From Bacteroidales bacterium (GTDB taxonomy: Bacteria; Bacteroidota; Bacteroidia; Bacteroidales; F082), in assembly GCA_017539045.1 (NCBI GenBank), contig JAFYHS010000021.1, positions 43,952 to 107,951 of the forward strand: DNA of 64,000 nt. The letters are read 5' to 3'. The notes beneath the pieces were generated by a model, which saw nothing but the letters and a program-made list of their open reading frames with translations, was not told the DNA's origin and did no database searches. This document shows, one piece after another, positions 29,187-49,204 of the stretch. Within the stretch, counting starts at the first letter, position 1. Each line of letters starts with the position of its first letter. The position numbers and the translations under genes are program-made.

Positions 29187-29220
29187 GTGCTGGTTTTCAA
29201 ATTATTGTATAAATAACTAT

Positions 29221-29242: not shown

Positions 29243-29296
29243 CACTTTGTTGTAATTAAATGCCATATTATTGCAACAAATTACAACACAAAACTT

Positions 29297-29674: not shown

Positions 29675-29727
29675 TTTGTCATTTATCTATTAATCATTAT
29701 TACAAACAATTTAAAAACACAATCATC

Positions 29728-30780
29728 ATGACGAAAAAAAGATTTACCCTGTTTGCCATCGTTATGGCAGCATTTGTCCTTTTTGTAGGATGCAAGAAAG
29801 AAAAAGAGCTGTCTACTTTGCGCCCAAAACAACAAATGCTCAAATTTGAGTCTTTTGAAGAGATTTTTCGGTATTTAAATGATAATACTAGATCATTTGA
29901 TACAGGATTTACTTCATATGGTTCCTTTATGGATAGCATATACTACTCCCTAAATATTGAAAACCGATTCAAAACCATAGAAGAAATAACAAAGTTTGTC
30001 AATGAAAACGACAGTTTGTTTCAATTGATACTATGTGATGATGGCTATTATATGTTTGAAACAATTCTTTTTGATCATCCATTTCGTAATGTTGCTAATA
30101 AAGATGGTATTTTTCAAGTCCGAGATTCTGTTTATAAGATAATTCAAGATGGGTTGATTTCAACATCAGCTGATAATATAGAAAGTTTATATACAGACAA
30201 TGTGTATTCCATTGATAATAATGAATTATTTAGAATCCACAAATTTGAAACAAAACAAACAAGTATAAATGAGTGTAAATCCTATATGTGTGGATGCACA
30301 ATTCTCTATGGTCTACCTAAAGAAAATGAGAGTATTAATGGTAATAATAAAACTTATGTAAAACTTACATTTTATTATAATCAGAACTATACAACTTTGG
30401 ATCTCGGAGCCACTTTCTTTGCCAAACCATATAAACGTACCGGGTTTTGGTTTGGCTGTTTTCGTACAATTTATGTTGAGTTTGATGCAAATATCCATTA
30501 TTATTCATATAATTGGGATCAATGCTATCATAGATTGCCATGTGATGGGGTCACATATGTTTCTACTTCGGGTGCGTCAACTACACGCTCAATTTATCAA
30601 ACAATCTATTCAGATCCTGAAAAAATAGGAGCAAAGCATATTGGGGCAGTTTTCGGGAGAGCAAGAACACCAGATACTGATTGGGCAACAATATCTTGGC
30701 GAGAAGAATATATTGAAGACTCTGGTGTTCAGTATCCCATACCTCATCCTCAGCCACCTGCGATACTACCCGCCTTCTAA
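29728..30780 (+). CDS. Predicted lipoprotein of unknown function
   Basis: A 350-aa exported protein. The signal ends VLFVGC with the lipid-anchored cysteine near residue 22 (MTKKRFTLFAIVMAAFVLFVGCKKEKE). The mature sequence is rich in N, D, Y, T and S, with a CKSYMCGC cysteine cluster in the middle and FWFGCFRTIYVEF later. It ends in a proline-rich tail (PIPHPQPPAILP). I do not recognise a family. It is AT-rich and in line with the DUF3244 gene, so the two may be co-transcribed in this accessory block. Confidence 0.6.
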   Translation: MTKKRFTLFAIVMAAFVLFVGCKKEKELSTLRPKQQMLKFESFEEIFRYLNDNTRSFDTGFTSYGSFMDSIYYSLNIENRFKTIEEITKFVNENDSLFQLILCDDGYYMFETILFDHPFRNVANKDGIFQVRDSVYKIIQDGLISTSADNIESLYTDNVYSIDNNELFRIHKFETKQTSINECKSYMCGCTILYGLPKENESINGNNKTYVKLTFYYNQNYTTLDLGATFFAKPYKRTGFWFGCFRTIYVEFDANIHYYSYNWDQCYHRLPCDGVTYVSTSGASTTRSIYQTIYSDPEKIGAKHIGAVFGRARTPDTDWATISWREEYIEDSGVQYPIPHPQPPAILPAF

Positions 30781-30849
30781 TTATATGCCAAGTTACAATA
30801 ATACAACAGCCATACAATGGAAATACAATAATGCTCATGGCTTGTCGTT

Positions 30850-30857
30850 TATTTTTG
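30850..30857 (+). promoter_or_regulatory. Predicted -7 box for the gene at 30896
   Basis: TATTTTTG, 38 bases before the ATG, a TAnnTTTG match in AT-rich DNA. The chance of a random match is higher here than elsewhere. Confidence 0.35.
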
Positions 30858-30895
30858 ATTTGTATTAACAACAAATAAAACCATACACAATTATT

Positions 30896-31564
30896 ATGAA
30901 CATTAGGATTTTTCTATTAGTAGTTCTTTTCTTGCCTCACGTTGCTTTTGCACAGGGCCAGTCAAAGCCTTTCAACAAAGGCAATTTCAAAATCGATGTG
31001 AGCTATTCCAGTTTGATGGAAAAAAACCTTAGTCGCACTTATCCTGATTTTTGTTTGAGTGTTAATTATGGCCTTACCGAATGGTTAGTTGCAGGTGTTT
31101 TCGGTAGCTATGGTAAGCTATCTTATTTATTAAGTGGCGGTAGAACGTCATGCATCGTTAGCATTCCTAATCCACAACCCGTCAAATATGATGGAGAAGT
31201 GGCGGAACGTTACTTTCACTATGGCTTCAATGTGGAGCTACATCCTCTTTCCATTTGGATGCCAAGCTTCCATTTAATAGATCCATACTGCCGCGGCGAA
31301 TTGGGCCTGAGAACCATTACAAAGCAATATGTTCCAGAAATAGAGGATTCTTATGCCGAACGTGTCCACAACAGTTTTCTCTATGGCGGAAGCATCGGCT
31401 TGGCCGTCAATCCTTCAAGGTATTTCGGTGCATTCTATGAGTTGGCTTATAATAACTTAAACAAGGAGATGATAGACTTTTTTGCAAATGAAATAAGAAT
31501 GAAGCCCATCCAGCGTTTCGGTCTCAACATCCGTTTCGGTGGACCGAAGAAATGGCAACGATAA
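30896..31564 (+). CDS. Predicted outer-membrane beta-barrel protein, tandem copy 1
   Basis: A 222-aa exported protein (signal LLVVLFLPHVAFAQGQ) with a beta-barrel look: alternating strands and a late FGLNIRFGGPKKWQ end. It is a paralogue of the next gene: both have FAQGQ(S/A)KPFNKG just after the signal, a conserved V(A)NPSRYFG(A/F)FYE stretch and the same RFGGPKKWQ terminus. The pair is a tandem duplication. No known family is recognised. Its job is unknown, possibly porin-like. The gap before copy 2 contains a palindrome. Confidence 0.65.
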   Translation: MNIRIFLLVVLFLPHVAFAQGQSKPFNKGNFKIDVSYSSLMEKNLSRTYPDFCLSVNYGLTEWLVAGVFGSYGKLSYLLSGGRTSCIVSIPNPQPVKYDGEVAERYFHYGFNVELHPLSIWMPSFHLIDPYCRGELGLRTITKQYVPEIEDSYAERVHNSFLYGGSIGLAVNPSRYFGAFYELAYNNLNKEMIDFFANEIRMKPIQRFGLNIRFGGPKKWQR

Positions 31565-31570
31565 ACACTT

Positions 31571-31599
31571 GTAGGGCTGTCACACCGTGGCAGCCCTAC
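31571..31599. repeat. Palindrome between the tandem barrel genes
   Basis: GTAGGGCTG (31571-31579) pairs with CAGCCCTAC (31591-31599). It shares the GTAGGG lead with the palindromes at 27658 and 12954 but has a different core. Confidence 0.8.
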
Positions 31600-31677
31600 A
31601 GCATTGATGCAATAAAACTATTTGGCTTTCGTTATGCCTTCAGTTCTGGAATACAAACATCACCATTAACAATCGTC

Positions 31678-32364
31678 ATGAGGAAAAGACGTTTTCTTTT
31701 TGTTTTACTACTATTGCCCTGCATGATTTTTGCGCAGGGCCAAGCAAAGCCTTTCAACAAAGGCAAAATTGTCCTGAATTTTGGATATGAGAAGCAGCCA
31801 GGAAGCGGCTTGAGAGGTGAAGCACCTAAAATTTGCTTCAGCGCTGGATATGGGTTCACGGACTGGTGTGTGGCAGGCCTCTATGCCAATTATGGGAGTG
31901 ACTTTATGGGTTATCATGCATATTCAATCAGTGGAAAAGATGAAAACGGGGCACCCATAAGCTTATATTGGCTAGAATTCAATAGCAACTATCTTGAATA
32001 TGGAACCCATGCCGAATTTCATCCTGTCAATCTGATGTTGCCGCAGTTTTATTTCGTGGATGTCTATGCTATTGTCCGTGTTGGGATGCATCATTTTATT
32101 TGCGATATCATAAGCGAGACAGGCTATGATGAAGTTCATGAAACTGAGTCTGGCTCATTGAAAAACTCCGCCACGCCCTACCTTGTCGGGGGATGGGGTG
32201 TGGCAATCAACCCGTCCAGATATTTTGGCTTTTTCTATGAAAGGACACATAACACACTCACTGACTTTTATGAAGTGTCGACTCCCTCTCTTAAACATCA
32301 TTTGTACCACCGCTTCGGCATCAACGTCCGTTTCGGCGGGCCGAAGAAATGGCAAAAACAATAA
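31678..32364 (+). CDS. Predicted outer-membrane beta-barrel protein, tandem copy 2
   Basis: A 228-aa exported protein. The signal is MRKRRFLFVLLLLPCMIFAQ, followed by GQAKPFNKGKI, then beta strands to INVRFGGPKKWQKQ. It is a paralogue of the gene at 30896. The longest frame starts at 31552, overlapping copy 1, but the residues before MRKRR do not look like protein and include a palindrome. ATG 31678 gives a clean signal peptide, so it is preferred. Four bases separate it from the DUF4249 lipoprotein gene, where base composition becomes GC-rich again. Confidence 0.65.
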   Translation: MRKRRFLFVLLLLPCMIFAQGQAKPFNKGKIVLNFGYEKQPGSGLRGEAPKICFSAGYGFTDWCVAGLYANYGSDFMGYHAYSISGKDENGAPISLYWLEFNSNYLEYGTHAEFHPVNLMLPQFYFVDVYAIVRVGMHHFICDIISETGYDEVHETESGSLKNSATPYLVGGWGVAINPSRYFGFFYERTHNTLTDFYEVSTPSLKHHLYHRFGINVRFGGPKKWQKQ

Positions 32365-35681: not shown

Positions 35682-35720
35682 AGCCCTTTTTCCATAGAAT
35701 ATTTGGGGAAGGGCTTTTTT
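35682..35720 (+). terminator. Terminator after the TonB receptor
   Basis: AGCCCTT (35682-35688) pairs with AAGGGCT (35709-35715), followed by six T's, with a 20-base loop. It separates the receptor from the alpha-2-macroglobulin gene. Confidence 0.75.
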
Positions 35721-35737
35721 GTTTCAAGTAGGTTTTC

Positions 35738-35745
35738 TATTTTTG
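35738..35745 (+). promoter_or_regulatory. Predicted -7 box for the alpha-2-macroglobulin gene
   Basis: TATTTTTG, 30 bases before ATG 35776, after the terminator. The longer frame beginning 35719 starts in this promoter region and is rejected. Confidence 0.45.
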
Positions 35746-35775
35746 CTTTTTGAAAATAACTCAAAAAGCTATGAT

Positions 35776-38700
35776 ATGAAAACCATGCATTATTTGAAAA
35801 GAATCAGCGGCATCAGCCTGGTTATGGGCTTGTTGCTGCTTGCCTTGTTGCCCTCGTGCGGCAAGAAGGGGAAGGACAACAATGTGTTTGTGGAACGCAT
35901 CAGCCAGTTGGATGAGTCCATGCTGGCCATGCTCGACAGCTACACCTCGGGCGTCATCGCCGCAGGCGAGCCCGTCGTGGTGCGCTTCAGCAACCCCGAA
36001 GACCTGAAGGTGAAATTCGGCGAGCCCATCCCCGCCAAGGCCTTCGAGTTCGCACCCGCCCTGAAGGGTAAGGCCATGTGGATCGACGAAAACACCGTCG
36101 GCTTCCAGTACGACAACATCGACAAGGACCAGAACTATGTCTGTCGGTTCAAGATGGCCGACTTCGTTGACGTCGCTCCCGACAAGGTGCTGGAGTTCGG
36201 CTTCGGCGTACGCCGCCAAAACTTCAGCCTCGTCACCATGCAGCCCATCTGCACCTCCAACGAGGAAATGAACTACAACATCCGTCTGGCGTTTGCCACA
36301 CCCATCGACCAGGCCGAGGCCGTCAAACTGTTCGACGAGTCCTTCCGCAAGGACCATCCCGTGGAGGTGAGTTACGTCGGAAACAATGTCTTCGATTTCC
36401 TCGTGCAAGGCCTGAAACGCGAGGCCTCCGACTATCAGTTGCCCCTGACGCTCGACGGCAAACCCATCGACTGCAAAGCCAAGATGCAACGCGAGCTGAC
36501 GGTCTATGCCAAGGACGGCTTCAAGCCCTTGCTGTTCGATGTCGACAAGGTCGCCAACAAAGCCTCCCTGTTCTTCTCGCAACCACTGAAAGAAGACCAG
36601 AACCTCGACGGCTTCGTCACCTTCAACAAGGCACTGGGCTACAAGGCCGATATCAAAGGCAACCAGATCGATTTCTATTTCGACAAGAGCTCACTCAACA
36701 ACTATGAATTGTCGGAGCTGAACATGACCGTGGGCAGCGGCATCCGTGCCGCCAACGGCATGCTCATGCAAAGCGACTATCCCTTCGACTTCGACCTTAC
36801 CGACAACCTGCCTAAGGTGCGTTGGACCGACGACGGCGTCATCATCCCTAAGGTGGAGGAGACCACGGTGTATTTTGACGCCATCTGCCTCAACGCGGTG
36901 ACGCTGAGAATCGTGCGTGTCTTCGACGACAATATCCTCTCTTTCATGCAGGACAACGAGTTGAGCGAGACCTACGGCATCCGTAAGGCAGGCCGTCTCG
37001 AGAAGAAGGTGAGGCTGGCCATCGACAATCCCTATGCCAACCAGTGGAAGACGTTCCCCATCGTCCTTTCCGACTACGTCAAGGTGGAGCCAGGCGCCAT
37101 GTACCAACTCAGCCTTAACTTCGGTCCCGCCGACTACACCTTCGCCTCTGAAGAGATGAAACAAGCCGTGGTTGAGAACGAAAAGCGTGAGGCCGAGTAT
37201 TGGGACGGCAACCGCTACGACTACAAGGAATACCGCTACGACGGCGAATGGAACGACCCCAACGGCTACTACTATTATAACTATGTGGAGCAGAAGAAGA
37301 ACATCGTCGTCAGCGACCTCGCAGTGACGGCCAAGATGGGCCGCGACGACCTCGTCGACGTGTATGTCTACCGCATCTCCGATGCCAAGCCCGCCACGGG
37401 CGCTCAGGTGACGGCCTACAACTACCAGAAGCAGGAGCTGGCCAAAGGCAACGTCGACGGCATGGGCCACGTGCAGCTGCAATGTGCCAACCGCCCCGCT
37501 TTCGTGGTGGCCTACAATAAGAAAGACGGCAAGTCAGTCATCAAGTTGAACGACGGCAATGCCTTGTCGTACAGCCGCTTCGATATCGCTGGCGAGCCCG
37601 TCGAAAAGGGCGTTTCCGCCTTCGCCTACAGTAATCGCGGCGTATGGCGCCCGGGCGATGAGTTGCAACTCAACCTCATGCTCAACGATTTGGATGCGGC
37701 CATCCCCGCTGACTACCCCGTCGTACTCGAGGTGATGGATGCCACAGGTCGCCTCTATGCCAAGCAGGTGAACAGCAAGCCTGTGAACGACATCTACTGC
37801 TTCACCGTGCCGACCAATGTGGCCGATGAGACCGGCGTGTGGCAAGCCCGTTTCAAGGTGGGCACAAGCACCATCACACAGTATCTGCGCGTGGAGACGG
37901 TGAAACCCAACCGCTTGGAAATCAAGATGGACCTGCCTGAGGTGGTTAGCCTGAAGCATAACGACCGCGTCAACCTGACTTCAAGATGGCTCAACGGTAT
38001 GAAAGCCAATGGCTTGAAGACCGAAGTGGATGTGAAGCTCCGCGGCGGTGAGACCACCTTCAAGGCGTATCCCAACTACACCTTCGTGAACGAGACCCAG
38101 AGCTTTGTCCCGCAAGAGTTGGCCCTCTATAGCGGCAACCTCAACGCTGAAGGCGTGGTCAATGTGGGCTTCGGTCCGCTGAAGGATATCTATGCCGCCC
38201 AGATGATGAACGGCACCTTCACGGTGAAGGTCTTCGAACAGGGTGGCGACTTCAGCATCGCTTCCTTCAAGTCGAAGCTCTCGCCATACGAGCGTTATGT
38301 GGGCGTCGACCTGCCTGAGACCGCCTCGAAATATGGCAGCTACTACGACACCGAGAAAGACTGGACCTTCAATATCGCCATAGTCAACGAGGACGGCACG
38401 GCCTGCAAGGCTTCCGTTGCCCTCGACTATGCCCTCTATAAGCTGGATTCCTACTGGTGGTGGTCGAGCGAGGACCAATACTCGTTGCAACGTTATGCCT
38501 CGGGTACCTATAAGGCCCCTGTGCAAAACGGCTCCTTGACCTGCAATGGCACCACCTCGGTGACCTTCAACATCCCGAACGACAAATGGGGCTGCTATCT
38601 CTTCGTCGTCGACGACAAGCAGGGTGGCAACACCTTTGCCAAGGTCATCAGCTTCGACTGGGGCTATGGCCATGCCTCGTCGGCCGCGGGCGCTCCTGCC

Positions 38701-41283
38701 CAACTCTCCATGAAGACTACGGCCGAAAGCTATCAGGTGCGTGAGAAGATCGTCGTCACCTTCCCGGCCAACGAAAAAGCCAAGGCACTGGTGACCGTGG
38801 AAGCCAACGACAAGGTGCTGCAAAACATGCTGGTGGAGAACCTCGGCCAGGAGGGTAAGGTGGAGATCACCGCTACCGAAGAGATGATTCCGAATGTCTA
38901 CGTCTATGTGGCCTTGATACAGCCGCACGATGTCGCCAACGATATGCCTATCCGTCTCTATGGCGTGGTGCCCGTGAAGGTGGAAGACAAGAAGCTGCAG
39001 CTGCAGCCTGTCATCCAAGTGCCCGAAACGGCCAACACAAAGAAAAAGGTGGAAGTGAAGGTGGCCGAAGCCAACAAGCAAGGCATGACCTACACCTTGG
39101 CCGTCGTCGACGAAGGCATCCTCGGCTTGACCAACTACAAGACGCCCAATCCTTACGGTTACTTCAACAGCAAGCAGGCTTTGAGCGTGCGCACTTGGGA
39201 CAACTACGCCAACATCGTCGATGCCTTCAGCGGCGAGCTGGGCTCCGTCTATGCCATCGGCGGCGACGGTATCCTCAACCAGGAGATCACCCTCGACAAG
39301 CGCTTCAAGGCCTTCGCGGTGACCTATGGTCCCTTTGAGTTGAAGGCTGGCGCTTCCAACACCCATACGATAGAAGTGCCGCAATGCTCTGGTGCCCTCC
39401 GCTTCATGGTGGTGGCCAAAGGCGACGGCAAGGCCTTCGGCTCGGCTGAGAAACAGATGAAGGTCTTCGACCCGATCAACCTCTATGCCTCGGCACCTCG
39501 TGTGGTGGCTCCCGGCGACGAGCTCAACCTCAAGGTGCAGGTGCAGGCTCCCACGATGAAGAACAAGACACTGGAGGTGAAGTTCGACAATAAGAACCTT
39601 GATGTCGTCGGCGCTCTACCCACCTCGGTGCAGATCGACGGCAACGGCGAGGGCCTCATCGTCGTCAAGACGAACATCCCCAAGACCATGGGCAACGCCG
39701 AAATGAACGTCAAGGTGACGGGCGAGGGCTATACCGCTGAATCGTCGACGGCCATGCCCATCCGTATGCCATACGCCGAACGTCGCAACACCATCACCAA
39801 GGAAATCGAAGCCGGACAGACGGTCAGCGTGCCGTTTGACCTGGCAGGCATGACGGGCACACAACAGGGCAACGTCACCATCTCTAACCTGCTTCCTGTC
39901 GATCTCTTCGGCCGCATCGACTATCTGACCGAGTATCCGCACGGCTGCCTCGAACAGGTGACGTCAAAAGCCTTCCCGCAGCTCTATCTGAACTACTTCG
40001 TCCAACTCGACGACAAGGCCAAGGAAGAGATGAGAGGTAACATCGATATGGCCATCAACAACCTGAAGGCCTACCGCAAGTCCGACAACTCGATGACCAA
40101 CTGGATCGGTGGCCGTTACACCGACCCGTGGACCGAGATCTATGCCTTGCATTTCCTGGTTGAAGCCCGCAAGCAAGGCTACAACGTGCACCAATATTTC
40201 ATCGACGGCCTGCTGAGATACCAAAGCGACCGAGCCAAGCAATGGCGCAACAACCCCGACTACAAGCAGGGTGAGACCATACAGGCCTACCGTCTCTTCG
40301 TGTTGGCTTTGGCCGACAAGGCTGAGATGGGCGCCATGAACCGCTTCAAGGAAATAGAGATGAAGTATGACCTCACCAAAGCTTTGGCAGCCGCTGCCTT
40401 TGCCCAAACGGGTAAGACCAGCATCGCCCAGAGCCTGCTACCTACTTTGGAAGATGGTAAGATGATGTCGGACTACTACACCTCCTTCGGCTCCCGCACC
40501 CGCGACCTCGCTTTCCTGACCTACGTGCAGATGCTCTGCGACGTGGACAAGCAGACGGTGCAAAACAACATCAACTCGGTGTGCGGCGTGCTGAGCGGCG
40601 ACGATTGGCTCGACACCCAAACTACAGCCTTCTCGCTCTTCGTGCTTGGCAAGTATGCCGAGAAGATGGGCCTCAACAATAGCAACCTCTCGGCCACCGT
40701 CAAGGTGAACGGCGAGGAACGTACTTTGAACACCAATATGGCCTCCGTCGGATACGGCTTCACGCCTAAACTGGGCGGCAACACCATCGAAATCAAGAAC
40801 AACACCAACCAGAAGATGGTGGCCCATGTCTTCACCAAGACTGCTGTGGCCGAATACGACATGAACGAGAGCGGCAACTTCATCAACATGACGGTGAACT
40901 ATACCGACAAGAATGGCAACCCGGTCAACTTGACCAACCTCACCGCTGGCACCGACCTCAAAGTGGAGATGACGGTGACCAACCCGAGTGAGTATCAAGT
41001 TACGGAGCTGGCCTTGTCGTACTACCTGCCTTCGGGTTGGGAGCTCGTCAACGACCGTCTGAACGGCGGCATGGCCGAGAACGAAGGCGCCAAGCACATC
41101 GACTTGCGCGATGACCGTGCTTACTTCTACTTCGACCTGATGCCGCGCTCGAAGAAGACCTTCACGCTGAAGGCCAACGCCACCTACGAAGGCAACTACA
41201 TGATTCCTGCCGTACGCTGCGAGGACATGTACAATAACGAGATTTTCTATCAGGTGCCGGCACGTGGGTGTGTGGTGAAATGA
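35776..41283 (+). CDS. Bacterial alpha-2-macroglobulin family lipoprotein
   Basis: A 1,835-aa giant exported protein. The signal ends LLALLPSC, a lipobox, so it is likely membrane anchored. N-terminal MG-like beta-sandwich domains fill the first half, the bait region and A2M core follow, and a helical toroid (repeats such as YLNYFVQLDDKAKEEM) leads to a C-terminal domain. The thioester motif C1391-L-E-Q1394 (HGCLEQVTSKAFPQLYL) is present, so it can trap attacking proteases covalently. In E. coli, yfhM lies next to pbpC. Here PBP1C is the next core gene but separated by a 5.6-kb insert. Confidence 0.93.
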   Translation: MKTMHYLKRISGISLVMGLLLLALLPSCGKKGKDNNVFVERISQLDESMLAMLDSYTSGVIAAGEPVVVRFSNPEDLKVKFGEPIPAKAFEFAPALKGKAMWIDENTVGFQYDNIDKDQNYVCRFKMADFVDVAPDKVLEFGFGVRRQNFSLVTMQPICTSNEEMNYNIRLAFATPIDQAEAVKLFDESFRKDHPVEVSYVGNNVFDFLVQGLKREASDYQLPLTLDGKPIDCKAKMQRELTVYAKDGFKPLLFDVDKVANKASLFFSQPLKEDQNLDGFVTFNKALGYKADIKGNQIDFYFDKSSLNNYELSELNMTVGSGIRAANGMLMQSDYPFDFDLTDNLPKVRWTDDGVIIPKVEETTVYFDAICLNAVTLRIVRVFDDNILSFMQDNELSETYGIRKAGRLEKKVRLAIDNPYANQWKTFPIVLSDYVKVEPGAMYQLSLNFGPADYTFASEEMKQAVVENEKREAEYWDGNRYDYKEYRYDGEWNDPNGYYYYNYVEQKKNIVVSDLAVTAKMGRDDLVDVYVYRISDAKPATGAQVTAYNYQKQELAKGNVDGMGHVQLQCANRPAFVVAYNKKDGKSVIKLNDGNALSYSRFDIAGEPVEKGVSAFAYSNRGVWRPGDELQLNLMLNDLDAAIPADYPVVLEVMDATGRLYAKQVNSKPVNDIYCFTVPTNVADETGVWQARFKVGTSTITQYLRVETVKPNRLEIKMDLPEVVSLKHNDRVNLTSRWLNGMKANGLKTEVDVKLRGGETTFKAYPNYTFVNETQSFVPQELALYSGNLNAEGVVNVGFGPLKDIYAAQMMNGTFTVKVFEQGGDFSIASFKSKLSPYERYVGVDLPETASKYGSYYDTEKDWTFNIAIVNEDGTACKASVALDYALYKLDSYWWWSSEDQYSLQRYASGTYKAPVQNGSLTCNGTTSVTFNIPNDKWGCYLFVVDDKQGGNTFAKVISFDWGYGHASSAAGAPAQLSMKTTAESYQVREKIVVTFPANEKAKALVTVEANDKVLQNMLVENLGQEGKVEITATEEMIPNVYVYVALIQPHDVANDMPIRLYGVVPVKVEDKKLQLQPVIQVPETANTKKKVEVKVAEANKQGMTYTLAVVDEGILGLTNYKTPNPYGYFNSKQALSVRTWDNYANIVDAFSGELGSVYAIGGDGILNQEITLDKRFKAFAVTYGPFELKAGASNTHTIEVPQCSGALRFMVVAKGDGKAFGSAEKQMKVFDPINLYASAPRVVAPGDELNLKVQVQAPTMKNKTLEVKFDNKNLDVVGALPTSVQIDGNGEGLIVVKTNIPKTMGNAEMNVKVTGEGYTAESSTAMPIRMPYAERRNTITKEIEAGQTVSVPFDLAGMTGTQQGNVTISNLLPVDLFGRIDYLTEYPHGCLEQVTSKAFPQLYLNYFVQLDDKAKEEMRGNIDMAINNLKAYRKSDNSMTNWIGGRYTDPWTEIYALHFLVEARKQGYNVHQYFIDGLLRYQSDRAKQWRNNPDYKQGETIQAYRLFVLALADKAEMGAMNRFKEIEMKYDLTKALAAAAFAQTGKTSIAQSLLPTLEDGKMMSDYYTSFGSRTRDLAFLTYVQMLCDVDKQTVQNNINSVCGVLSGDDWLDTQTTAFSLFVLGKYAEKMGLNNSNLSATVKVNGEERTLNTNMASVGYGFTPKLGGNTIEIKNNTNQKMVAHVFTKTAVAEYDMNESGNFINMTVNYTDKNGNPVNLTNLTAGTDLKVEMTVTNPSEYQVTELALSYYLPSGWELVNDRLNGGMAENEGAKHIDLRDDRAYFYFDLMPRSKKTFTLKANATYEGNYMIPAVRCEDMYNNEIFYQVPARGCVVK

Positions 41284-41305
41284 TTAGTAACGAAATGAAC
41301 ATCGT

Positions 41306-41331
41306 AGGGGCGGGCATGGATGTCCGCCCCT
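41306..41331. repeat. Palindrome after the alpha-2-macroglobulin gene
   Basis: AGGGGCGGGCA (41306-41316) pairs with TGTCCGCCCCT (41321-41331), one G-U-type pair, followed by GTTGTTTTGG. Lies just after the macroglobulin stop. It may act as a terminator or be a REP-type repeat. Confidence 0.75.
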
Positions 41332-41368
41332 GTTGTTTTGGAAAAAGCGAGTTTTATAATTTGCCAAG

Positions 41369-41416
41369 ATTTCGGGGTCAACAAGCATTTTGATGAAATA
41401 AATTTCGGGGTCAGCA
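41369..41416 (+). repeat. Direct repeats of ATTTCGGGGTCA upstream of the AAA ATPase
   Basis: ATTTCGGGGTCAaCA at 41369-41383 and ATTTCGGGGTCAgCA at 41402-41416 are 33 bases apart, followed by similar AT-rich tracts. They lie just upstream of the promoter of the ATPase, so could be regulator-binding sites or traces of insertion. Confidence 0.65.
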
Positions 41417-41436
41417 TGATTTTTCTTTGAAAAAAA

Positions 41437-41467
41437 TTGCGGGATAGAAATATTAATACTACTTTTG
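41437..41467 (+). promoter_or_regulatory. Promoter of the AAA-DUF4143 gene
   Basis: TTG at 41437-41439 (ATTG, near -33 consensus) and TACTTTTG at 41460-41467, separated by 20 bases. A good Bacteroidota promoter match, with ATG 41481 close behind. Confidence 0.6.
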
Positions 41468-41480
41468 CGTCGGATTTTCA

Positions 41481-42827
41481 ATGGATTATATTATGGATAA
41501 AGTGTTTAAGAGAAAAGTATACCATCAATTGTTGGAATGGAAAGAAACCGAAAATGGTCGTACAGCCATTTTGGTGGAAGGGGCACGGCGCGTGGGGAAG
41601 TCCACGATTGTGGAACTGTTCGCGAAACAAGAGTACGAGACCTATATCCTTATTGATTTCAATAAAGCAAGTAAGGCAATTGTCGCATTATGGGATGACT
41701 TGAATGATTTGAATGTGATTTTCCTCAAATTGCAACAAGAATATCGGGTGACACTTCATGAGCGCAAGTCTGTCATCGTTTTTGATGAGGTGCAGCATTG
41801 CCCGAAAGCACGCCAGGCCATCAAATATTTGGTGCAAGACGGCCGTTACGATTATATCGAAACAGGCTCGCTAATCAGCATTCACAAGAACACAAAGGAT
41901 ATTACCATCCCGAGCGAGGAGGATAGCATAACGATGTATCCGATGGATTATGAGGAGTTTCGTTGGGCAATGGGTGATACGGCCTCCATCCCGTTGCTGA
42001 AGCAGCAGTTTGAGAAACGCATTTCATTGGGCGATGACATCGCTCGCTCCAAGATGCGCGACCTTCGTTTGTATATGTTGGTAGGTGGTATGCCGCAAGC
42101 AGTAAATACTTATTTGGACACGAATAATCTGGGCTTGGTAGATAAAACCAAACGAGGAATTATAAAGTTGTATCTTCAGGATTTTCAAAAAATCGACGCT
42201 ACTGGAAATGCAGAACGTCTGTTTAAGAATATCCCTGCGCAATTAAGCAATAATGCTTCGCGGTATCAGCCATATACCGTGATTGGTCAACAGACGGAGA
42301 GCAAGATGGCGGAGTTGTTGCAGGACTTGGAAGAGAGTAAAACGGTGTTGTTTTGCCATCATTGCACAGACCCGAATGTGGGAATGTCATTGAATAAAGA
42401 TTTGAGCCGATACAAAATGTTTGTGGCCGATACAGGCTTGTTCGTTACACTTGCGTTTTGGGACAAACGTTACACCGACAATATCATTTATGATAAGCTG
42501 TTGAGCGACAAGCTGGAGGCTAATTTGGGCTATGTGTACGAGAATTTAGTGGCGCAAATGTTGGCCTCGGCTGGAAATGAATTGTATTACTACACTTTCG
42601 CCAAGGATGCGAAACATAATTACGAGATAGACTTTATATTGTCTCGGGGCAATAAGATTTGTCCGATAGAAGTTAAGTCGTCGGGATATAAAACCCACAA
42701 GTCCTTGGATGCTTTTTCTGAGAAATTTTCCTCGCGTGTAGGTGAGCGTTATCTTGTTTATACCAAAGACTTGCGCAAGGATGGTGAAACAACGCTGTTG
42801 CCGGTTTATATGACAGGGTTGATATAA
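41481..42827 (+). CDS. AAA ATPase with DUF4143 C-terminal domain
   Basis: A 448-aa P-loop ATPase of the AAA_14/DUF4143 type. The Walker A region reads GARRVGKSTIVELF near residue 35, and Walker B is VIVFDEVQHC. The C-terminal DUF4143 includes IEVKSSGYKTHKSLDAF, a PD-(D/E)XK-like segment sometimes present in this family. These ATPases are common and mobile across bacteria and archaea, but their job is not established. It is the first gene of the AT-rich block inserted between the macroglobulin gene and pbpC. The sequence shows no damage. Confidence 0.88.
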   Translation: MDYIMDKVFKRKVYHQLLEWKETENGRTAILVEGARRVGKSTIVELFAKQEYETYILIDFNKASKAIVALWDDLNDLNVIFLKLQQEYRVTLHERKSVIVFDEVQHCPKARQAIKYLVQDGRYDYIETGSLISIHKNTKDITIPSEEDSITMYPMDYEEFRWAMGDTASIPLLKQQFEKRISLGDDIARSKMRDLRLYMLVGGMPQAVNTYLDTNNLGLVDKTKRGIIKLYLQDFQKIDATGNAERLFKNIPAQLSNNASRYQPYTVIGQQTESKMAELLQDLEESKTVLFCHHCTDPNVGMSLNKDLSRYKMFVADTGLFVTLAFWDKRYTDNIIYDKLLSDKLEANLGYVYENLVAQMLASAGNELYYYTFAKDAKHNYEIDFILSRGNKICPIEVKSSGYKTHKSLDAFSEKFSSRVGERYLVYTKDLRKDGETTLLPVYMTGLI

Positions 42828-43158
42828 GGATTGCTTAGGGAAAGAAGTTGAAGGATTTTCCGGATGGTTTGTTATCAAGGGTCAAAAAGACGGGTTGGTA
42901 TTATATTGTAAACCCAGTTTGGGCGAATCCTTTGCATTGACGACACAGTTTATCATATTGGCGCATCGCTGAAGGATTTGGGGAAGAAATGGTTTGCGTT
43001 TGGACGCATGGAGATTGGAACTGATGCGCTGTTGCAGAAAATGTAGCAAAAGGAAAGAAACAAAGCCCCCTGATTTTTATTTGATGATTATTTGATTGGA
43101 AGTACAAAAACAGGAAATTCTTCTAATGGGTTTATGCAGTTTTTGATTGCACAAAACG
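42828..43158. other. Gene-free stretch with a coding remnant
   Basis: No intact gene is seen on either strand across 331 bases. Its main content is the remnant described at 42912-43046. The remaining part, 43047-43158, shows nothing recognisable. The compositional style is AT-rich, like the rest of the island. Confidence 0.6.
42912..43046 (+). pseudogene. Remnant of an ORF6N/PLD-like protein C-terminus
   Basis: Translated in the frame ending TAG at 43044-43046, the stretch reads ...RILCIDDTVYHIGASLKDLGKKWFAFGRM. That closely resembles the conserved end of ORF6N-type and similar proteins (HDRFLILD...YHIGASLKDAGKK), and is cut by a stop at 42909. No start, N-terminus or catalytic part is left. 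The family match is from memory of conserved phrases, so the identification is moderate. It suggests that a mobile gene was lost here. Confidence 0.5.
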
Positions 43159-43800
43159 TTATCCTTTAATTTGATTTCTGAATGATTTTCCAATATCCAT
43201 AATTAGTTCATCATATTTGTCTTTTGTCGCTTTGTTTTGTTGAATTGTGCTCTTTGTGTCTTCTACTGTAATTGTTTGAACAGATTCGCCATCTTCAAGT
43301 TGAGTTCTTATGTCAATTAGTTTTAATTTGCCAAATTGGAATTGCTCAAATTGTTCTATCAACTGAATTAGTTTGTTGTAATGCTCCTCTTCTATTAACA
43401 AAAGATTATCATTTATTGCTTTTCTTGTAAGCCTAATTTGTTCACTAAATGAAGGTATTTTAGAGGGATCTGCTTTTTGCCATAGCATGTCTGCCTGTTG
43501 TTTGGTATATAACAGGACTCTCCATAGATCATTATATAATTCAAATTGTTTTTCTGAATACCTTTCAAATTGCAATTTTGCTTTTTCCAATTCATTTTTT
43601 GTTTTTTCTAATTCATTAGCATATCTGTTTTTTAATGTTTCTAATTCATTTTCATGTTTGTTATTATAGGAATCAAGTAAACGATTAGACAAAAAGCCGC
43701 CAAACCATTTTGCTAATGCAACGATAATAACGCCAGAACCACCAACTGAAAGAAAAAACGCTGACGCCAACTTAAAATACTCAATCCATTTCATAATCAA
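43159..43800 (-). CDS. Membrane-anchored coiled-coil protein of unknown function
   Basis: A 213-aa protein. Residues about 8-34 are hydrophobic (LASAFFLSVGGSGVIIVALAKWF), a likely single membrane helix. They are followed by a charged coiled coil of about 50 residues (HENELETLKNRYANELEKTKNELEKAKLQFE) and a soluble helical part. I do not recognise a named family. The start overlaps the end of the upstream gene by four bases (ATGA), so the two are translated from one mRNA. The gene ends the operon. Located in an island with a PD-(D/E)XK protein, it could be a membrane effector (inference only). Confidence 0.65.
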   Translation of the reverse strand: MIMKWIEYFKLASAFFLSVGGSGVIIVALAKWFGGFLSNRLLDSYNNKHENELETLKNRYANELEKTKNELEKAKLQFERYSEKQFELYNDLWRVLLYTKQQADMLWQKADPSKIPSFSEQIRLTRKAINDNLLLIEEEHYNKLIQLIEQFEQFQFGKLKLIDIRTQLEDGESVQTITVEDTKSTIQQNKATKDKYDELIMDIGKSFRNQIKG

Positions 43801-44189
43801 TAATATAGATTGTTAAACTTCATCCATTCACTTATTTGGTTTGGATTGACACTTATATAAAGGAATTGATTTACTGTTAAATAACCGAATTTGTTTCCTC
43901 GCAAATAAATGGTAGGTGGTGTTGATGTATATGGATTAAAAGGACTTAATGAGGAATATTGACTTCCATATAAGGAAAACTTGTTGTTAATCGAAGTAGA
44001 AGAGTATGGATTTCCATATAAACCATAGGTATTCATTATAGATTCTGGATCATAAATGTTCAAGCAAAGTTTCCCCAAAAATTGTCCATCGTTTGCAACG
44101 ATGAAAGACTCACCTCTACTTGTTCTTAATCCCAATTCGTTTTTTGTCATATCAAATTCATTTTGTAATTCCTCATCAATCATCGGCAT
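43797..44189 (-). CDS. YGxYGSxYS-repeat protein, hypothetical
   Basis: A 130-aa protein with a repeat of NTYGLYGNPYSSTSINNKF and LYGSQYSSLSPFNPYTSTPP. It is introduced by ESFIVANDGQFLGKLCLN and ends YLTVNQFLYISVNPNQIS. I recall this YGxYGSxYSSxSPFNxY pattern from a widespread hypothetical family without a known function. There is no signal peptide or catalytic motif. It is the first gene of the two-gene minus operon, with a TATCTTTG box upstream (44246-44253), divergent from the IF2N-nuclease gene. Confidence 0.65.
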   Translation of the reverse strand: MPMIDEELQNEFDMTKNELGLRTSRGESFIVANDGQFLGKLCLNIYDPESIMNTYGLYGNPYSSTSINNKFSLYGSQYSSLSPFNPYTSTPPTIYLRGNKFGYLTVNQFLYISVNPNQISEWMKFNNLYY

Positions 44190-44245
44190 TATCTCCTTTC
44201 AAAAACAAATTAAAAGGCCTCAATTGCTGATACTATTTCAAATGA

Positions 44246-44253
44246 CAAAGATA
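44246..44253 (-). promoter_or_regulatory. Predicted -7 box for the YGxYGS/coiled-coil operon
   Basis: Minus-strand TATCTTTG, 57 bases upstream of the first gene's start codon. It is divergent from the box at 44296. Confidence 0.45.
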
Positions 44254-44295
44254 ACAAAAATATTTTGATTACTATTTTCCTAACACAATAATACT

Positions 44296-44303
44296 TATTT
44301 TTG
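44296..44303 (+). promoter_or_regulatory. Predicted -7 box for the IF2N-nuclease gene
   Basis: TATTTTTG, 19 bases before ATG 44323. No good -33 match. Confidence 0.5.
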
Positions 44304-44322
44304 TGCCAATAAAGCTGACATT

Positions 44323-46815
44323 ATGTCTGAAAAATCAAATATCACCATCCGATTGTCAAAAGCGGCAAAAGAATTTAATATAGGGAAGGATGCCATTGTG
44401 GAATTCCTTGCCAAGAAGGGTTTTCAGATTGATTCTGCACCCAATACAAAGCTTACGGCAGATATGTATGGACTACTTGCAAAAGAATTTCAAGGCGAGA
44501 AGGAAGTGAAAGAAGAGGCCAAGAGATTGGGCAACCTATCCTACAAGGGTGGTAGTGTTTCCGTTGATTCGGCCATAAAGACTCAAAAAGATATCATAGA
44601 TAATCGTATCAAAGAAAAAACGAATACTATTTCTAAAAAGAAAAGAAAAGAACAAAAGGTTGTCGAAATTGTCGAAAGAAAAGAAGAGATAAAAGAGAAA
44701 AGCCAAGAGAACATAGAACAAACAAAGATTGAGTATAATGCTACTTTTTCTGAACTAAAATTTGAGCAAGGTTATATCTCTTTAATTTACGATAAGAAGT
44801 ATTGCATTTATAGAGACTATAGAATAAGGGATTATGGTAAAACCTTAGAGCAGATATTCGGCAAGCTCTCTAAAAAGGGTAAGGAAGCCATTCAAGCCTC
44901 AATTATCAAGGTTGTAATTGATATTGAAACGGAAACTTTTGTTTTTAAGGACATAGACATCCTTATATTTGTCAACCGGCTAAAGGATATTTATTTGCCT
45001 GAAAATAATTCAGGGGAAACTAGCAATAAAAATGTCGAAAGAAAAAATGAACAAAATGAGAGTGGCAATGAAAATGAAGAGAAAGAGAAAACAAATAAAT
45101 TGTTCAAAACAAAGATTGAGCGTAAAGTTCTATTTAATACAATAAGATTTGGTCATGGCTTTGCCTCAATAACATACAAAAGGAGGAACTATTATTATAA
45201 AGACCCTAAAATCAGAAATTTCGACAAAACCATAAAACAGATATTTAGCAGGCTTTCAAAAGCAAGAAGGCACTCCCTTAACACCTTCTTTATTGAGGTG
45301 ATAATTGATATTCCTGCGGGAACTTTCACATTCAAAAACGTAGACATCTGCGAATATGTCAACGAACTAAAAGAAAGTAGTCTACCAGAAAACAATAAGA
45401 CAGAAAACCGTAACAGAATTCGACTGAATAAAGCGGCAAGAATGTTCAATGTTAGTAAAGATGCCATTGTAGGATTCCTTGCCAAGAATGGATTCATAAT
45501 CGTTAATCCACAGCCCAATACCAAACTCTCTGAGGAAATGTATAAGCTACTTGTGAAAGAGTATCAGGGAGGAATGGATGTGCCGCAAAAACCACCGACA
45601 ATATATGAGAAAATGAGTCTTGGGACTGGCAACATTCAATTTTTCAATGGATATTACTTGATTTTCCAAACAACCAATGGGAAGGTTGATAATTCTGTTA
45701 CTCCTTACAGAGTCAATGACCCAAATTCGCTTGAGATACTTAATCTTGTTCACAGTTATTTTGAGCGAAAGCTTGAGCAACTGAATATCATTGTCAAGAT
45801 TGACAAGACAGCCATACTTGAGCCATCAAAAATTGACCAATTTCAACTTAGTAATTATGTTAGATTCTTAAACCAGAATTTGAATGAAAAAGGTGGATGG
45901 TGGGAAGAAGTACAGAATTATCGCAAACCATCCTTGAAACAATGTCGTAGCGTTTCTGCAGAAGTCGCTAAAAAGAAGGTTTCGTTGAAAAATGGTTATC
46001 TTGATAGCCTTGTTAGTATGCAAAGCGAGATAAAACTGATTCCTGTCTATGAAGTAAACCTAAACCACGGAAAAGAAGAAGATGCTTTCATCTTTACAAT
46101 CAACATGTCTAATGACAGATGTGCGGTTATCTTTGAGAATGCGTCAAATGATGCTTCAACAACGACATGGGTTTTTGTGACAAAGAAGGAGAATTACGAG
46201 CCATGTATAAACTTAGTATTTGATTATTTCACGGATTATACTATTGCTAAGAAACGTTTAACCCTGAGGAATAAAACTGTTAATCTTCCAAAAAAGTTCA
46301 AGGCTGAGAGCTATACATTCATTGACCATGATGATTTAGGACAATGGCTAAAAAAGTTGAACAAGATTCTGGAGCAATCATCCGAGCCTTCTGATATTGC
46401 GTTTGTTCCAGGCCTCCACATTCCTGAAAGTTCCGAGTCTCGCACTGGTCATGACGACACAATCACCACAAAACACCTTCACAACCAACTTATGCGCAAA
46501 CTATATGACAGACTTTGCATTGAACACGGAAAAGATAATGTTGGTACAGAGATTCGAACAGGGACAAAAAGAATCGATTGCGTTGTTAAAGGTGATGACC
46601 ATTACGACATCTATGAAATCAAGACCGCTGAAAATCCTTTTGATTGTGTCACCGAGGCATTAGGCCAGTTATGCCGATATACCTATCTATACTGTCGTGA
46701 CAAAATTGGCAAGATGGTCATAGTAGGTGCATCTGAGACGAACAAAGAAGTTGAGCAATATCTGTCATGGTTTCGCAAGAACTATTCTCTACAGTTGTTT
46801 TATATGAAGGTATAG
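44323..46815 (+). CDS. Modular protein: two IF-2 N-terminal-like domains and a C-terminal PD-(D/E)XK nuclease motif
   Basis: An 830-aa protein of an architecture I do not recognise as described. Residues about 5-60 (ITIRLSKAAKEFNIGKDAIV) and about 364-420 (IRLNKAARMFNVSKDAIVGF) resemble the N-terminal helical domain of Bacteroidota initiation factor IF-2. Two similar alpha/beta modules lie at about 136-227 and 265-356, with comparable regions perhaps at 427-530 and 590-690. Lysine/glutamate-rich linkers join them. The C-terminus has D752, E765-I-K767 and Q782-xxx-Y786, the pattern of RecB-like PD-(D/E)XK nucleases. It could cleave nucleic acid. No N-terminal signal or membrane helix. Its AT-rich sequence and island position suggest acquired, possibly defensive, function (inference). 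Confidence 0.75.
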   Translation: MSEKSNITIRLSKAAKEFNIGKDAIVEFLAKKGFQIDSAPNTKLTADMYGLLAKEFQGEKEVKEEAKRLGNLSYKGGSVSVDSAIKTQKDIIDNRIKEKTNTISKKKRKEQKVVEIVERKEEIKEKSQENIEQTKIEYNATFSELKFEQGYISLIYDKKYCIYRDYRIRDYGKTLEQIFGKLSKKGKEAIQASIIKVVIDIETETFVFKDIDILIFVNRLKDIYLPENNSGETSNKNVERKNEQNESGNENEEKEKTNKLFKTKIERKVLFNTIRFGHGFASITYKRRNYYYKDPKIRNFDKTIKQIFSRLSKARRHSLNTFFIEVIIDIPAGTFTFKNVDICEYVNELKESSLPENNKTENRNRIRLNKAARMFNVSKDAIVGFLAKNGFIIVNPQPNTKLSEEMYKLLVKEYQGGMDVPQKPPTIYEKMSLGTGNIQFFNGYYLIFQTTNGKVDNSVTPYRVNDPNSLEILNLVHSYFERKLEQLNIIVKIDKTAILEPSKIDQFQLSNYVRFLNQNLNEKGGWWEEVQNYRKPSLKQCRSVSAEVAKKKVSLKNGYLDSLVSMQSEIKLIPVYEVNLNHGKEEDAFIFTINMSNDRCAVIFENASNDASTTTWVFVTKKENYEPCINLVFDYFTDYTIAKKRLTLRNKTVNLPKKFKAESYTFIDHDDLGQWLKKLNKILEQSSEPSDIAFVPGLHIPESSESRTGHDDTITTKHLHNQLMRKLYDRLCIEHGKDNVGTEIRTGTKRIDCVVKGDDHYDIYEIKTAENPFDCVTEALGQLCRYTYLYCRDKIGKMVIVGASETNKEVEQYLSWFRKNYSLQLFYMKV

Positions 46816-46888
46816 TATTTATCAAATAATGCCAATCGAATTGACACAAATACAAATGACATTGTTTCGGGAATAATTGAGGGAATAA

Positions 46889-49204
46889 ATGCGACCATCA
46901 CAAAACCATAAAAAACTGAAAATCACCCTGCTAATCATAGCGGTCCTTTTCATTGTCTTTTTGTGCATCCCCGTACCAAGGTTCGACAAGCCCTATTCCA
47001 CGGTGTTGACAGCCGAGAATGGCGAGTTGCTTGGCGCTAAGATTGCCGACGACGGGCAGTGGCGTTTCCCGGCCACGAACGACTATTCGCCGAAGTATGT
47101 CGCCTGCCTCTTGGAATACGAAGACCGTTGGTTTTTCTTCCATCCAGGCTTCAACCCTGTGGCTTTCGTGAAGTCGTTCATTGACAACATGAAGGCAGGC
47201 GAGGTGGTGCGTGGCGGCAGCACCCTTTCCATGCAGGTGGTGCGTCTGTCGCGCGACAACCCGCCGCGAACCTATGCCGAGAAGCTCTGGGAGGTGATCC
47301 TGGCCATGCGGTTGGAGCTTCGCTATTCCAAGCGTTCCATCCTCAATATGTATGCCGCCAACGCACCCTTCGGAGGCAACGTAGTCGGCATCGACGCGGC
47401 GGCATGGCGCTATTTCCACACCACACCCAACGAGCTCTCGTGGGCCGAGGCTGCGACGCTTGCCGTGTTGCCCAATTCACCTGCTTTGATCCATCCAGGC
47501 CGCTCTCGCGACCGCTTGCAGCGGAAACGCGACGGCTTGCTCCAACGTCTGCCCGATTCCAGAACCTTTATCCCGAGACGTTTTGCCGTACCTGAATTGT
47601 CGGTTGAGGACTGCGAGCTGGCCATGATGGAAAGCATCCCTGAAAGGCCCTACGATATGCCTATGTTGGCCTACCACTACCTCAGCGACCAGGACAAGCA
47701 GCATCATGGAGAACAGATCGCGTCCCATATTGACTATGATTTGCAACGTTCCGTGTTGGACATCATGCATCGGCACCATGAAAACAATGTGATGAATAGC
47801 ATCGATAACGCGGCAGTCTATGTGGTGGATTACCTGAAGGATGAGATTGTGGCCTATGTGGGCAACAACAGCGATGCCACTGATGCCGCCATGGTCGACA
47901 TGGTGAAGGCACAACGCTCCACGGGCAGCATCTTGAAGCCTTTCCTCTTTGCCGCCATGCTCGACGAGGGCACGCTGTTGCCCGAGATGGTCCTGCCCGA
48001 TGTCCCAATGAGCCTCTCGGGCTTTACGCCTAAGAATTACAGTGGCGAGTATTGGGGTGCGGTGCCAGCCGACAAGGCCCTGCAGAACTCGTTGAATGCG
48101 CCTTTCGTGCATCTGCTGCGCGAATATGGGCAGCAGCGTTTCCATGGCTTGTTGAAACAGTTGCCTTTGAGAGGTGTCGTCTTCGATGCGGAGCATTACG
48201 GTCTGTCGCTCATTGTGGGTGGAGCCGAGGCCTCGCTATTCGACATCACGAATGCCTATGTCAAGATGGGAAGGAAGCTCGCCTCTTATGTCAATGAACG
48301 TTTTGATGAGAAAGTAGACGCAAAAGAGACGCCATTCTCTGCCGAAGCCATCGCCGAGACCTTCCATGTGATGAAGGGCTTGGCGCGGCCAGTGAACCAG
48401 ATAGGGTGGGGAGGCTTCTCCTCATCGGTTCAGGTGGCATGGAAGACGGGTACCAGCCACGGTTTCAAGGACGCTTGGGCGGTGGGCTTGACCGACCGTT
48501 ATGCCGTGGGCGTCTGGGTGGGCAATGCCGATGGCGAGGGCCGCCCCGGACTGACGGGCGTGGCCGTGGCAGCGCCGATACTCTTCGATGTGGTGGGCAA
48601 GTTGAACGACAGCTACCGCTATCCTGCCAATACCATGGAGAGTCTTGAGATAGAGGTCTGTGCCGAGTCGGGCTATCCCAAGTCGGAGTATTGTCCGCAT
48701 ACCAAGAAGATTCGTGTGCCGCGGGTGGAGAACAAAACGGGTGTGTGCCCTTACCATAAGAAGGTGTTTTTGGATTCGACACGGCAATATCAGGTGCTTC
48801 CCGACTGCTATCCCGTCGACCAGAAGAATTATGAGGTGTATTATGTGTTGCCACCTGTGATGGAGTGGTTCTACAAGAAACACTCGCCTTTGTTCCGGCC
48901 TTTGCCAGCCTTCTATCCTGGGTGTGGCACTGCCCATCCCGATGAGGTGATGGCCTTCGTCTATCCCAAGAGCGACGCCAAGGTCAGCATCCCCATCGGC
49001 ATCCGTGGCGACCGACAGCAGGTCATCTTCGAGATCGCCCACCGCAACCCGCAGAAGACCATCTATTGGTCCCTGAATGACGAGTTCTTAGGCCAGACGC
49101 GCCTCAACCACCAGATGCCTATTGATGTGGCGAAAGGCACCTACCGTCTCCGTTGTGTTGACGAGGACGGGGTTGAATTGAATAGAAGGATTGTGGTGCA
49201 ATAA
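46889..49204 (+). CDS. pbpC: Penicillin-binding protein 1C
   Basis: PBP1C is a 771-aa inner-membrane peptidoglycan glycosyltransferase with a transpeptidase-like domain. An N-terminal anchor (ITLLIIAVLFIVFLCIP) precedes the glycosyltransferase domain (LEYEDRWFFFHPGFNP, GGSTLSMQVVRL) and the transpeptidase with S347-I-L-K350 (SxxK), SLN and KTGTS motifs. A C-terminal beta domain (BiPBP_C-like) ends the protein. In E. coli it lies beside the alpha-2-macroglobulin gene yfhM, and the two are thought to work together to repair breached walls. The alpha-2-macroglobulin gene here lies on the other side of the inserted island. Confidence 0.96.
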   Translation: MRPSQNHKKLKITLLIIAVLFIVFLCIPVPRFDKPYSTVLTAENGELLGAKIADDGQWRFPATNDYSPKYVACLLEYEDRWFFFHPGFNPVAFVKSFIDNMKAGEVVRGGSTLSMQVVRLSRDNPPRTYAEKLWEVILAMRLELRYSKRSILNMYAANAPFGGNVVGIDAAAWRYFHTTPNELSWAEAATLAVLPNSPALIHPGRSRDRLQRKRDGLLQRLPDSRTFIPRRFAVPELSVEDCELAMMESIPERPYDMPMLAYHYLSDQDKQHHGEQIASHIDYDLQRSVLDIMHRHHENNVMNSIDNAAVYVVDYLKDEIVAYVGNNSDATDAAMVDMVKAQRSTGSILKPFLFAAMLDEGTLLPEMVLPDVPMSLSGFTPKNYSGEYWGAVPADKALQNSLNAPFVHLLREYGQQRFHGLLKQLPLRGVVFDAEHYGLSLIVGGAEASLFDITNAYVKMGRKLASYVNERFDEKVDAKETPFSAEAIAETFHVMKGLARPVNQIGWGGFSSSVQVAWKTGTSHGFKDAWAVGLTDRYAVGVWVGNADGEGRPGLTGVAVAAPILFDVVGKLNDSYRYPANTMESLEIEVCAESGYPKSEYCPHTKKIRVPRVENKTGVCPYHKKVFLDSTRQYQVLPDCYPVDQKNYEVYYVLPPVMEWFYKKHSPLFRPLPAFYPGCGTAHPDEVMAFVYPKSDAKVSIPIGIRGDRQQVIFEIAHRNPQKTIYWSLNDEFLGQTRLNHQMPIDVAKGTYRLRCVDEDGVELNRRIVVQ

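Follow-up and report, generated by a model that had tools for sequence, protein, structure and literature searches.

Nuclease effectors of bacterial immunity are well known, yet their triggers often are not. Among the described proteins closest to the one reported here, Can2 degrades DNA as well as RNA and gives protection from plasmids and phage (PMC7969007). In E. coli and Geobacillus the N-domain of translation initiation factor IF-2 serves as the factor's ribosome anchor, with residues 2-50 of the E. coli protein forming a compact subdomain (PMC4611024). The paper with PD-T4-1 (PMC9519451) and a survey of translational GTPases (PMC1780047) were also consulted. Here we describe P0001, an 830-aa protein encoded in the window (the whole 64,000-nucleotide stretch of contig JAFYHS010000021.1 from a Bacteroidales bacterium), in which a head resembling the IF-2 N-terminal domain (IF2N) is joined to a predicted PD-(D/E)XK nuclease. 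This arrangement suggests an immune protein that finds or senses invaders through a piece of the host's translation machinery. Its parts are of known kinds, and the combination, the head of almost certain infB (IF-2 gene) origin and the family-specific modules match no Pfam, NCBIfam, or PADLOC model. Among the papers listed by literature searches on IF2N, Tiamat with IF2, anti-phage decoys, and IF-2-directed phage proteins there was neither this architecture nor a system described as monitoring infection through IF-2.

Architecture of P0001

The original prediction for this gene had listed two IF2N domains, two alpha/beta modules, and a D-ExK-QxxxY motif, all of which were found in the open reading frame (ORF). 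The parts of the gene are as follows, in window coordinates.

44323..46815, + strand: IF2N/nuclease gene P0001, an 830-aa ORF with an ATG start
44323..44580, + strand: almost certain copy of the infB 5' end (IF2N and post-domain linker), about residues 1-86
44581..44724, + strand: Lys/Glu-rich charged linker, low model confidence
44731..45006, + strand: alpha/beta (weakly OB-like) module 1, residues 137-228
45118..45393, + strand: alpha/beta (weakly OB-like) module 2, residues 266-357, the only module used for the fold search
45412..45585, + strand: IF2N 2, residues 364-421
45610..46392, + strand: conserved middle part (residues 430-690), modelled with low to medium confidence
46390..46812, + strand: predicted PD-(D/E)XK nuclease domain, residues 690-830
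46576..46623, + strand: catalytic motif D752 ... E765-x-K767, invariant in 14/14 aligned domains
44296..44303, + strand: TATTTTTG, an exact TAnnTTTG match 19 nt before the P0001 ATG

P0001 is a coding gene; purifying selection acts on all three parts tested, and its domain architecture and motifs are not a product of chance. The AlphaFold2 model reached pLDDT values of 82-97 in ten-residue blocks across the IF2N cores, the modules, and the nuclease (721-830). The upstream match TATTTTTG fits the Bacteroidota -7 promoter consensus, TAnnTTTG; it is a weak candidate promoter because the + strand of the 5.6-kb insert that carries the gene has four exact matches.

An IF-2 head captured from infB

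We found that residues 1-126 of P0001 are 64% identical to the infB product of the same genome (E 1.5e-40), the sole other match of P0001 in that genome, which is about 81% complete. The host infB, found upstream of the window at a distance of about 6.9 kb, is a 972-aa ORF with GHVDHGKT present and a NusA-like gene upstream of it. The first ~90 residues of four IF-2s from the genus are 76-80% identical to the P0001 head, and this identity runs on beyond the IF2N fold through the post-domain linker KLGNLSYKGGSVSVDS. Because the likeness is this close and includes the linker, residues ~1-86 almost certainly derive from a genus-type infB, judging by sequence. The head matches the first IF2N domain of the genus IF-2s, which carry two, and shares 69/89 residues with its own host's IF-2, compared with up to 72/89 in other genus members. 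The second unit (364-421) is identical to the host IF-2 at 37/54 positions, and an IF2N profile that includes both units scored 115 bits for the first and 101 bits for the second. The Pfam IF2_N model scored 16.7 bits on residues 9-58, below its 25.3-bit cut-off; this cut-off is not diagnostic here because genuine genus IF-2s also miss it, their N-terminal IF2N domains scoring 17.5-21.9 bits where listed. For most genomes, the window's included, that domain of IF-2 was not listed at all in the genus Pfam search. By these alignments and profiles the IF2N domains of P0001 are homologous to those of IF-2, and the earlier wording "IF-2-like" was right in kind and understated, as the first IF2N with its linker almost certainly comes from infB of the same genus. 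P0001 was rejected as an IF-2 orthologue, since neither GHVDHGKT nor the general G....GK[ST] motif of a translational GTPase occurs in it; GHVDHGKT was present in 26/26 IF-2 loci checked.

The history of this head was examined with trees, in which the root was placed for drawing only, and these cannot separate one capture from several. The five family heads of the genus fall together with 29 further rows, most of them genus IF-2s, in a set separate from the IF-2s of genomes G009, G011, G022, and G029 (support 100/100 for protein, 100/99 for DNA), and a single capture for the five gave approximately unbiased test values (p-AU) of 0.373 for protein and 0.411 for DNA. The head of a sixth, distant member (locus L051) groups with the IF-2 of its own host (96/86), a placement for which the program warns of possible long-branch attraction. 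Forcing all six heads together lost 37.6 log-likelihood units (p-AU 0.087). For the L051 head, its own host's IF-2 ranked 9th of 65 by local score; by global score it reached 141, against at most 115.5 for genus IF-2s. With these p-AU values, repeated capture from each host was not supported. No ongoing refreshing of the head was seen either, because third-position divergence of head and tail overlapped in 9/10 pairs; the window-G075 pair gave 0.49 (0.39-0.61) for the head versus 0.35 (0.30-0.39) for the tail. A head swap with the host infB at least once since the family arose is plausible, not proven, since the C-terminal halves of L051 and the G084 member are about equally far from the window's (64 and 61% identical) but in the head the identities to the window's IF2N are 43 and 76%.

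The nuclease domain and the modules

All residues of the D-ExK-QxxxY motif (D752, E765, K767, Q782, and Y786) are present in P0001. They are invariant in 5/5 family proteins and in 14/14 nuclease domains, three from family members and 11 from others. In the AlphaFold2 model the C-terminus has the aBBBaBaB topology of the PD-(D/E)XK core, and on this modelled fold and active site it is a predicted member of that superfamily, as the nuclease claim had anticipated. The nearest folds in a structure search, which with P0001 is dominated by the nuclease domain, were AF1548, Card1/Can2, BsoBI, McrC, and LmuA, all at moderate scores. The label "RecB-type" rests on the QxxxY motif; the best-scoring solved folds were the first four of these.

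This domain also occurs outside the family. Without the rest of the protein it was found in four further genomes among 173 family-level genomes, in three genomes of the order search (393 genomes), and as six solid matches in 296 phylum-level genomes, window excluded; the phylum search also gave weak matches in G828, G585, and G821 (E 2e-4 to 9e-4). An order-search match in G248 was dropped as unrelated, being an M23-peptidase-like protein by eye. Four plasmid records carried the domain (two from Vibrio, one from Pseudoalteromonas, and one from Phocaeicola that is doubtful as a plasmid). At loci L060-L066 and L108-L113 it is joined to several head types, lying C-terminal to PD-T4-1-like heads at L064 (PADLOC 2.8e-33), L066 (2.3e-18) and, by eye, L111 and L113, and after a PtuA-like head at L065 (PADLOC 2.5e-36). 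At least two further head types carry the domain; where scanned, neither Pfam nor PADLOC gave a family name to those with the ad hoc labels "HEEWLFD" and "NIG".

The modules at residues 137-228 and 266-357 are 41% identical to each other. The alpha/beta module was seen only in the six-member P0001 family, where its copy number varies, and a fold search with module 2 found it weakly OB-like; a PDB sequence search with the module profile gave no match. Two extra repeats within the middle part were not supported (hhalign P 0.19 and 0.075), although residues 573-684 have a strand/helix order in the predicted model that resembles the module, and a third, diverged copy was tentatively recognized in G083, G070, and L051 (P 5.6e-4).

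Distribution of the family

Relatives of the whole protein were found in six genomes, namely 5/173 family-level genomes and that of L051, and the sources with names were metagenome-assembled genomes of uncultured Bacteroidia/Bacteroidales. P0001 alone gave no match against the genome contigs, and a profile scan led to five loci. Members have between one and three IF2N units and differing numbers of modules before a conserved C-terminal half. The homologues are thus rare accessory genes, and housekeeping homologues, which would have counted against the original prediction, were not what was found. PDB sequence searches gave no match for P0001, with best E-values of 0.21 for the IF2N profile and 0.2 for the nuclease profile, and NCBIfam and PADLOC held no model for it. 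None of the phage records matched P0001, and two peptide patterns from the C-terminal half gave no confirmed match in viral contigs, a search of limited sensitivity. Foldseek against BFVD returned mostly endonuclease-like, KilA-N, and unnamed proteins and was uninformative. Three other candidates were discarded as infB: an odd-length IF2N ORF in G387, which lies beside a NusA-like gene by eye; plasmid match H6, annotated as infB beside nusA; and the unannotated plasmid match H5, taken as infB from its IF2N-only match. Because of this infB content, the H5 and H6 "plasmid" records may be chromosomal pieces.

A defence hotspot between A2M and pbpC

P0001 lies in an insertion between an alpha-2-macroglobulin-type (A2M) gene and pbpC, with the following features.

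41280..46906, no strand: low-GC (guanine-cytosine) insert between A2M and pbpC, 5.6 kb, absent from G004 and G066
35719-41283: A2M gene, named by eye
46889-49204: pbpC, named by eye
41481..42827, + strand: co-inserted AAA_14/DUF4143 ATPase (Pfam 85 bits; PADLOC PDC-S01, E 4.4e-95)
43159..43800, - strand: co-inserted 213-aa ORF, no family above cut-off
43797..44189, - strand: co-inserted 130-aa ORF, no family above cut-off

Against G004 and G066, the two relatives nearest by pbpC among the loci inspected, blastn matches of the window end at 41279 and restart at 46907, and both flanks have 95-97% DNA identity. In these two relatives only 16 nt separate the last A2M codon from the pbpC start, stop codon included. 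The inserted genes have 30-43% GC versus 56% in the flanking genes.

Among the genomes of the genus, 71/99 had pbpC at E 1e-60 or better, and the best 30 loci were inspected. Of these, 13/30 had an A2M-pbpC gap no longer than 54 nt and 7/30 a gap of 145-1413 nt, and the other ten, window included, had no A2M within a flank of roughly 1.5 kb. Defence-type genes stood at the hotspot in 7/10 of these (the window, G083, G075, G051, G020, G084:C17, and G024). The cargo included TIR, weakly NACHT-like, and other genes in G075, genes like those of type I restriction-modification in G020 (the same by eye in G084:C17, with PDC-S31), PDC-S02 in G024, and, in G051 (locus L174, 3674-11487, + strand), a PDC-S37/Hhe-type protein of 1826 aa with an AriA/AriB-like (PARIS-like) pair. 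Of the remaining three, G061 held REP-type transposase-like ORFs by eye, G077 was without A2M in the stretch read, and G069 met a contig end. Family members occupy the same site in G083 and G075; the G084 member is on another contig (C60), and that of G070 has as neighbours a gene that by eye resembles an acyl-CoA dehydrogenase and a putative abortive-infection gene (Pfam putAbiC). P0001 is therefore located among defence genes, and the hotspot and its cargo support the defence setting that had been proposed for it. The co-inserted ATPase is probably an independent gene; by eye, the hotspots of G051 and G084:C17 have a similar gene and lack the nuclease.

Some further features were noted, with their ORFs named by eye. 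The G061 hotspot (locus L175, 2658-4599, + strand) has two copies of the REP-type transposase-like ORF and a partial second pbpC start, possibly a trace of DNA uptake at the hotspot. Elsewhere in the window, positions 28001-32000 form a second low-GC stretch (35-38%) with lipoprotein-like and two similar ORFs, and an RHS-core-like ORF lies at the window edge (62917-63990, - strand) with a small ORF adjoining it.

IF2N heads on other proteins

Taken alone, the IF2N domain was found mostly in IF-2 itself. It also heads the following proteins.

L036 2924-10168, - strand: giant of G082, 2414 aa, with IF2N head, OST-HTH (20.6 bits, cut-off 23.8), and TmtA (2.2e-84)
L037 9924-15515, + strand: giant of G072, 1863 aa, with IF2N head, S1 (31.5 bits), sacsin domain, and TmtA (2.5e-90)
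L036 593-2920, - strand, and L037 15509-17761, + strand: SF1-type helicases with C-terminal PIN, adjoining the G082 and G072 giants
L143 4825-12537, + strand: giant of G403, 2570 aa, with IF2N head, cold-shock domain (26.9 bits, cut-off 27.0), and DpdF/PsyrT-like and UvrD helicase regions
L142 1021-1659, - strand: short IF2N-like head on a phosphopantetheine adenylyltransferase-like enzyme, by eye

The G403 giant also has a DnaQ-like stretch by eye. In all three giants a match of RNA- or nucleic-acid-binding type comes after IF2N. Together with the OB-like modules of the P0001 family, they suggest at the sequence level that Bacteroidota defence proteins reuse IF2N with a nucleic-acid-binding unit as their front end, a pattern resting on four architectures and not on a statistical test. 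Because of L142, IF2N may also join housekeeping enzymes. Neither these heads, the infB origin, nor the family specificity and varying number of the modules had been part of the original prediction.

Favoured reading and rival explanations

We favour, at a probability of roughly 40%, the reading that P0001 is a stand-alone defence nuclease of its genus, positioned or triggered through the translation-initiation contacts of its IF2N units. From the literature on the IF-2 N-domain and on Can2, we infer that these units would dock the protein on a target contacted by the IF-2 N-domain, that the OB-like modules would contact nucleic acid, probably RNA, and that the nuclease would be released once infection disturbs initiation or provides a recognized RNA or protein. 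Like Can2, the nuclease might then degrade DNA or RNA, whether its action is directed at the invader or amounts to abortive infection. In these terms P0001 may sense translation or tRNA and cut nucleic acid, as had been proposed.

Two rivals are serious, though each is on balance doubtful. The IF-2 copy could be bait, an integrated decoy that switches on the nuclease when a phage or rival-element protein binds or modifies it in place of IF-2. A likeness that covers the linker as well as the fold fits bait, as do IF2N copies varying from 1 to 3, the different IF2N of L051 with its (flagged) pairing and higher global score with its own host's IF-2, and the Tiamat-like G082 head, which scores best with its own host's IF-2. 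The one literature search aimed at it found no phage protein targeting the IF-2 N-terminus, however, and a single capture is not rejected (nor at p-AU 0.087 for all six heads); the local rank of L051's host, the window head's closer match to other genus IF-2s than to its own host's, and the similar head and tail divergence in 9/10 pairs all speak against bait. Alternatively, P0001 could resemble a type IV restriction enzyme, with IF2N as a small winged-helix-like DNA binder, a middle part that reads foreign or modified DNA, a nuclease that cuts DNA, and translation uninvolved. The strong infB origin of the first ~86 residues, linker included, argues against this, and the DNA-binding resemblances were at Z levels that the tool itself describes as common by chance.

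It is improbable, in our estimation, that IF2N guards a host factor by binding an IF-2 partner (the ribosome, the fMet-tRNA complex, or IF1/IF3) only when initiation stalls, which would make P0001 an abortive-infection sensor of translation shut-off and not an RNA-targeting nuclease. The same IF2N evidence and the defence setting agree with this as with the favoured reading, from which sequence and structure tools cannot distinguish it. We give even less weight to a housekeeping or neutral fusion without an immune role: the housekeeping-type enzyme at L142 offers a parallel for it, but the P0001 family is rare and patchy (5/173), sits at a low-GC insertion hotspot, and is under purifying selection in the parts tested.

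On the favoured reading, a sensor half made from a host initiation factor would tie phage defence to translation initiation. It is also conceivable, if rather unlikely, that structurally unlike immune proteins (here the PD-(D/E)XK nuclease, the Tiamat-like HSP90 ATPase, and the multi-helicase giant) have acquired the N-terminus of the host IF-2 on more than one occasion, as a portable bait or sensor. In that case Bacteroidota phages would attack the IF-2 N-domain or the site that it contacts, and such proteins would be bacterial counterparts of the integrated-decoy immune receptors of plants. The recurrence of IF2N with an RNA-binding-type domain offers a handle for finding more such systems, and the varying copy number of front-end units opens a direct test of specificity.

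Comparison with known systems

P0001 shares residues ~1-86 with IF-2 (76-80% identity to genus IF-2s) but lacks the GTPase motif GHVDHGKT. Card1/Can2 are among the nearest folds to its nuclease, at 6-12% identity; no CARF match was found for P0001 in Pfam or PADLOC, the structure search being dominated by the nuclease domain, and the co-inserted ATPase had only weak Csx1/CARF-PDDEXK matches in PADLOC. From McrC and other PD-(D/E)XK restriction effectors, and from LmuA of Lamassu, P0001 differs in its N-terminal half, and no McrB- or SMC-type partner was found among the insert genes by Pfam and PADLOC. The PD-T4-1-type and PtuA-headed proteins (L064, L066, and L065, with L111 and L113 by eye) carry a nuclease domain homologous to that of P0001 on N-terminal halves with no detected relation to it. 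For the HSP90/sacsin-type ATPase domain of Tiamat (TmtA), P0001 had no PADLOC family and no Pfam match. The Tiamat-like giants of G082 and G072 and the helicase giant of G403 nevertheless have IF2N at the extreme N-terminus, as P0001 does; there it is followed by OST-HTH, S1, or a cold-shock domain and then an HSP90/sacsin-type region or helicases, whereas in P0001 it is followed by the modules and the predicted PD-(D/E)XK nuclease.
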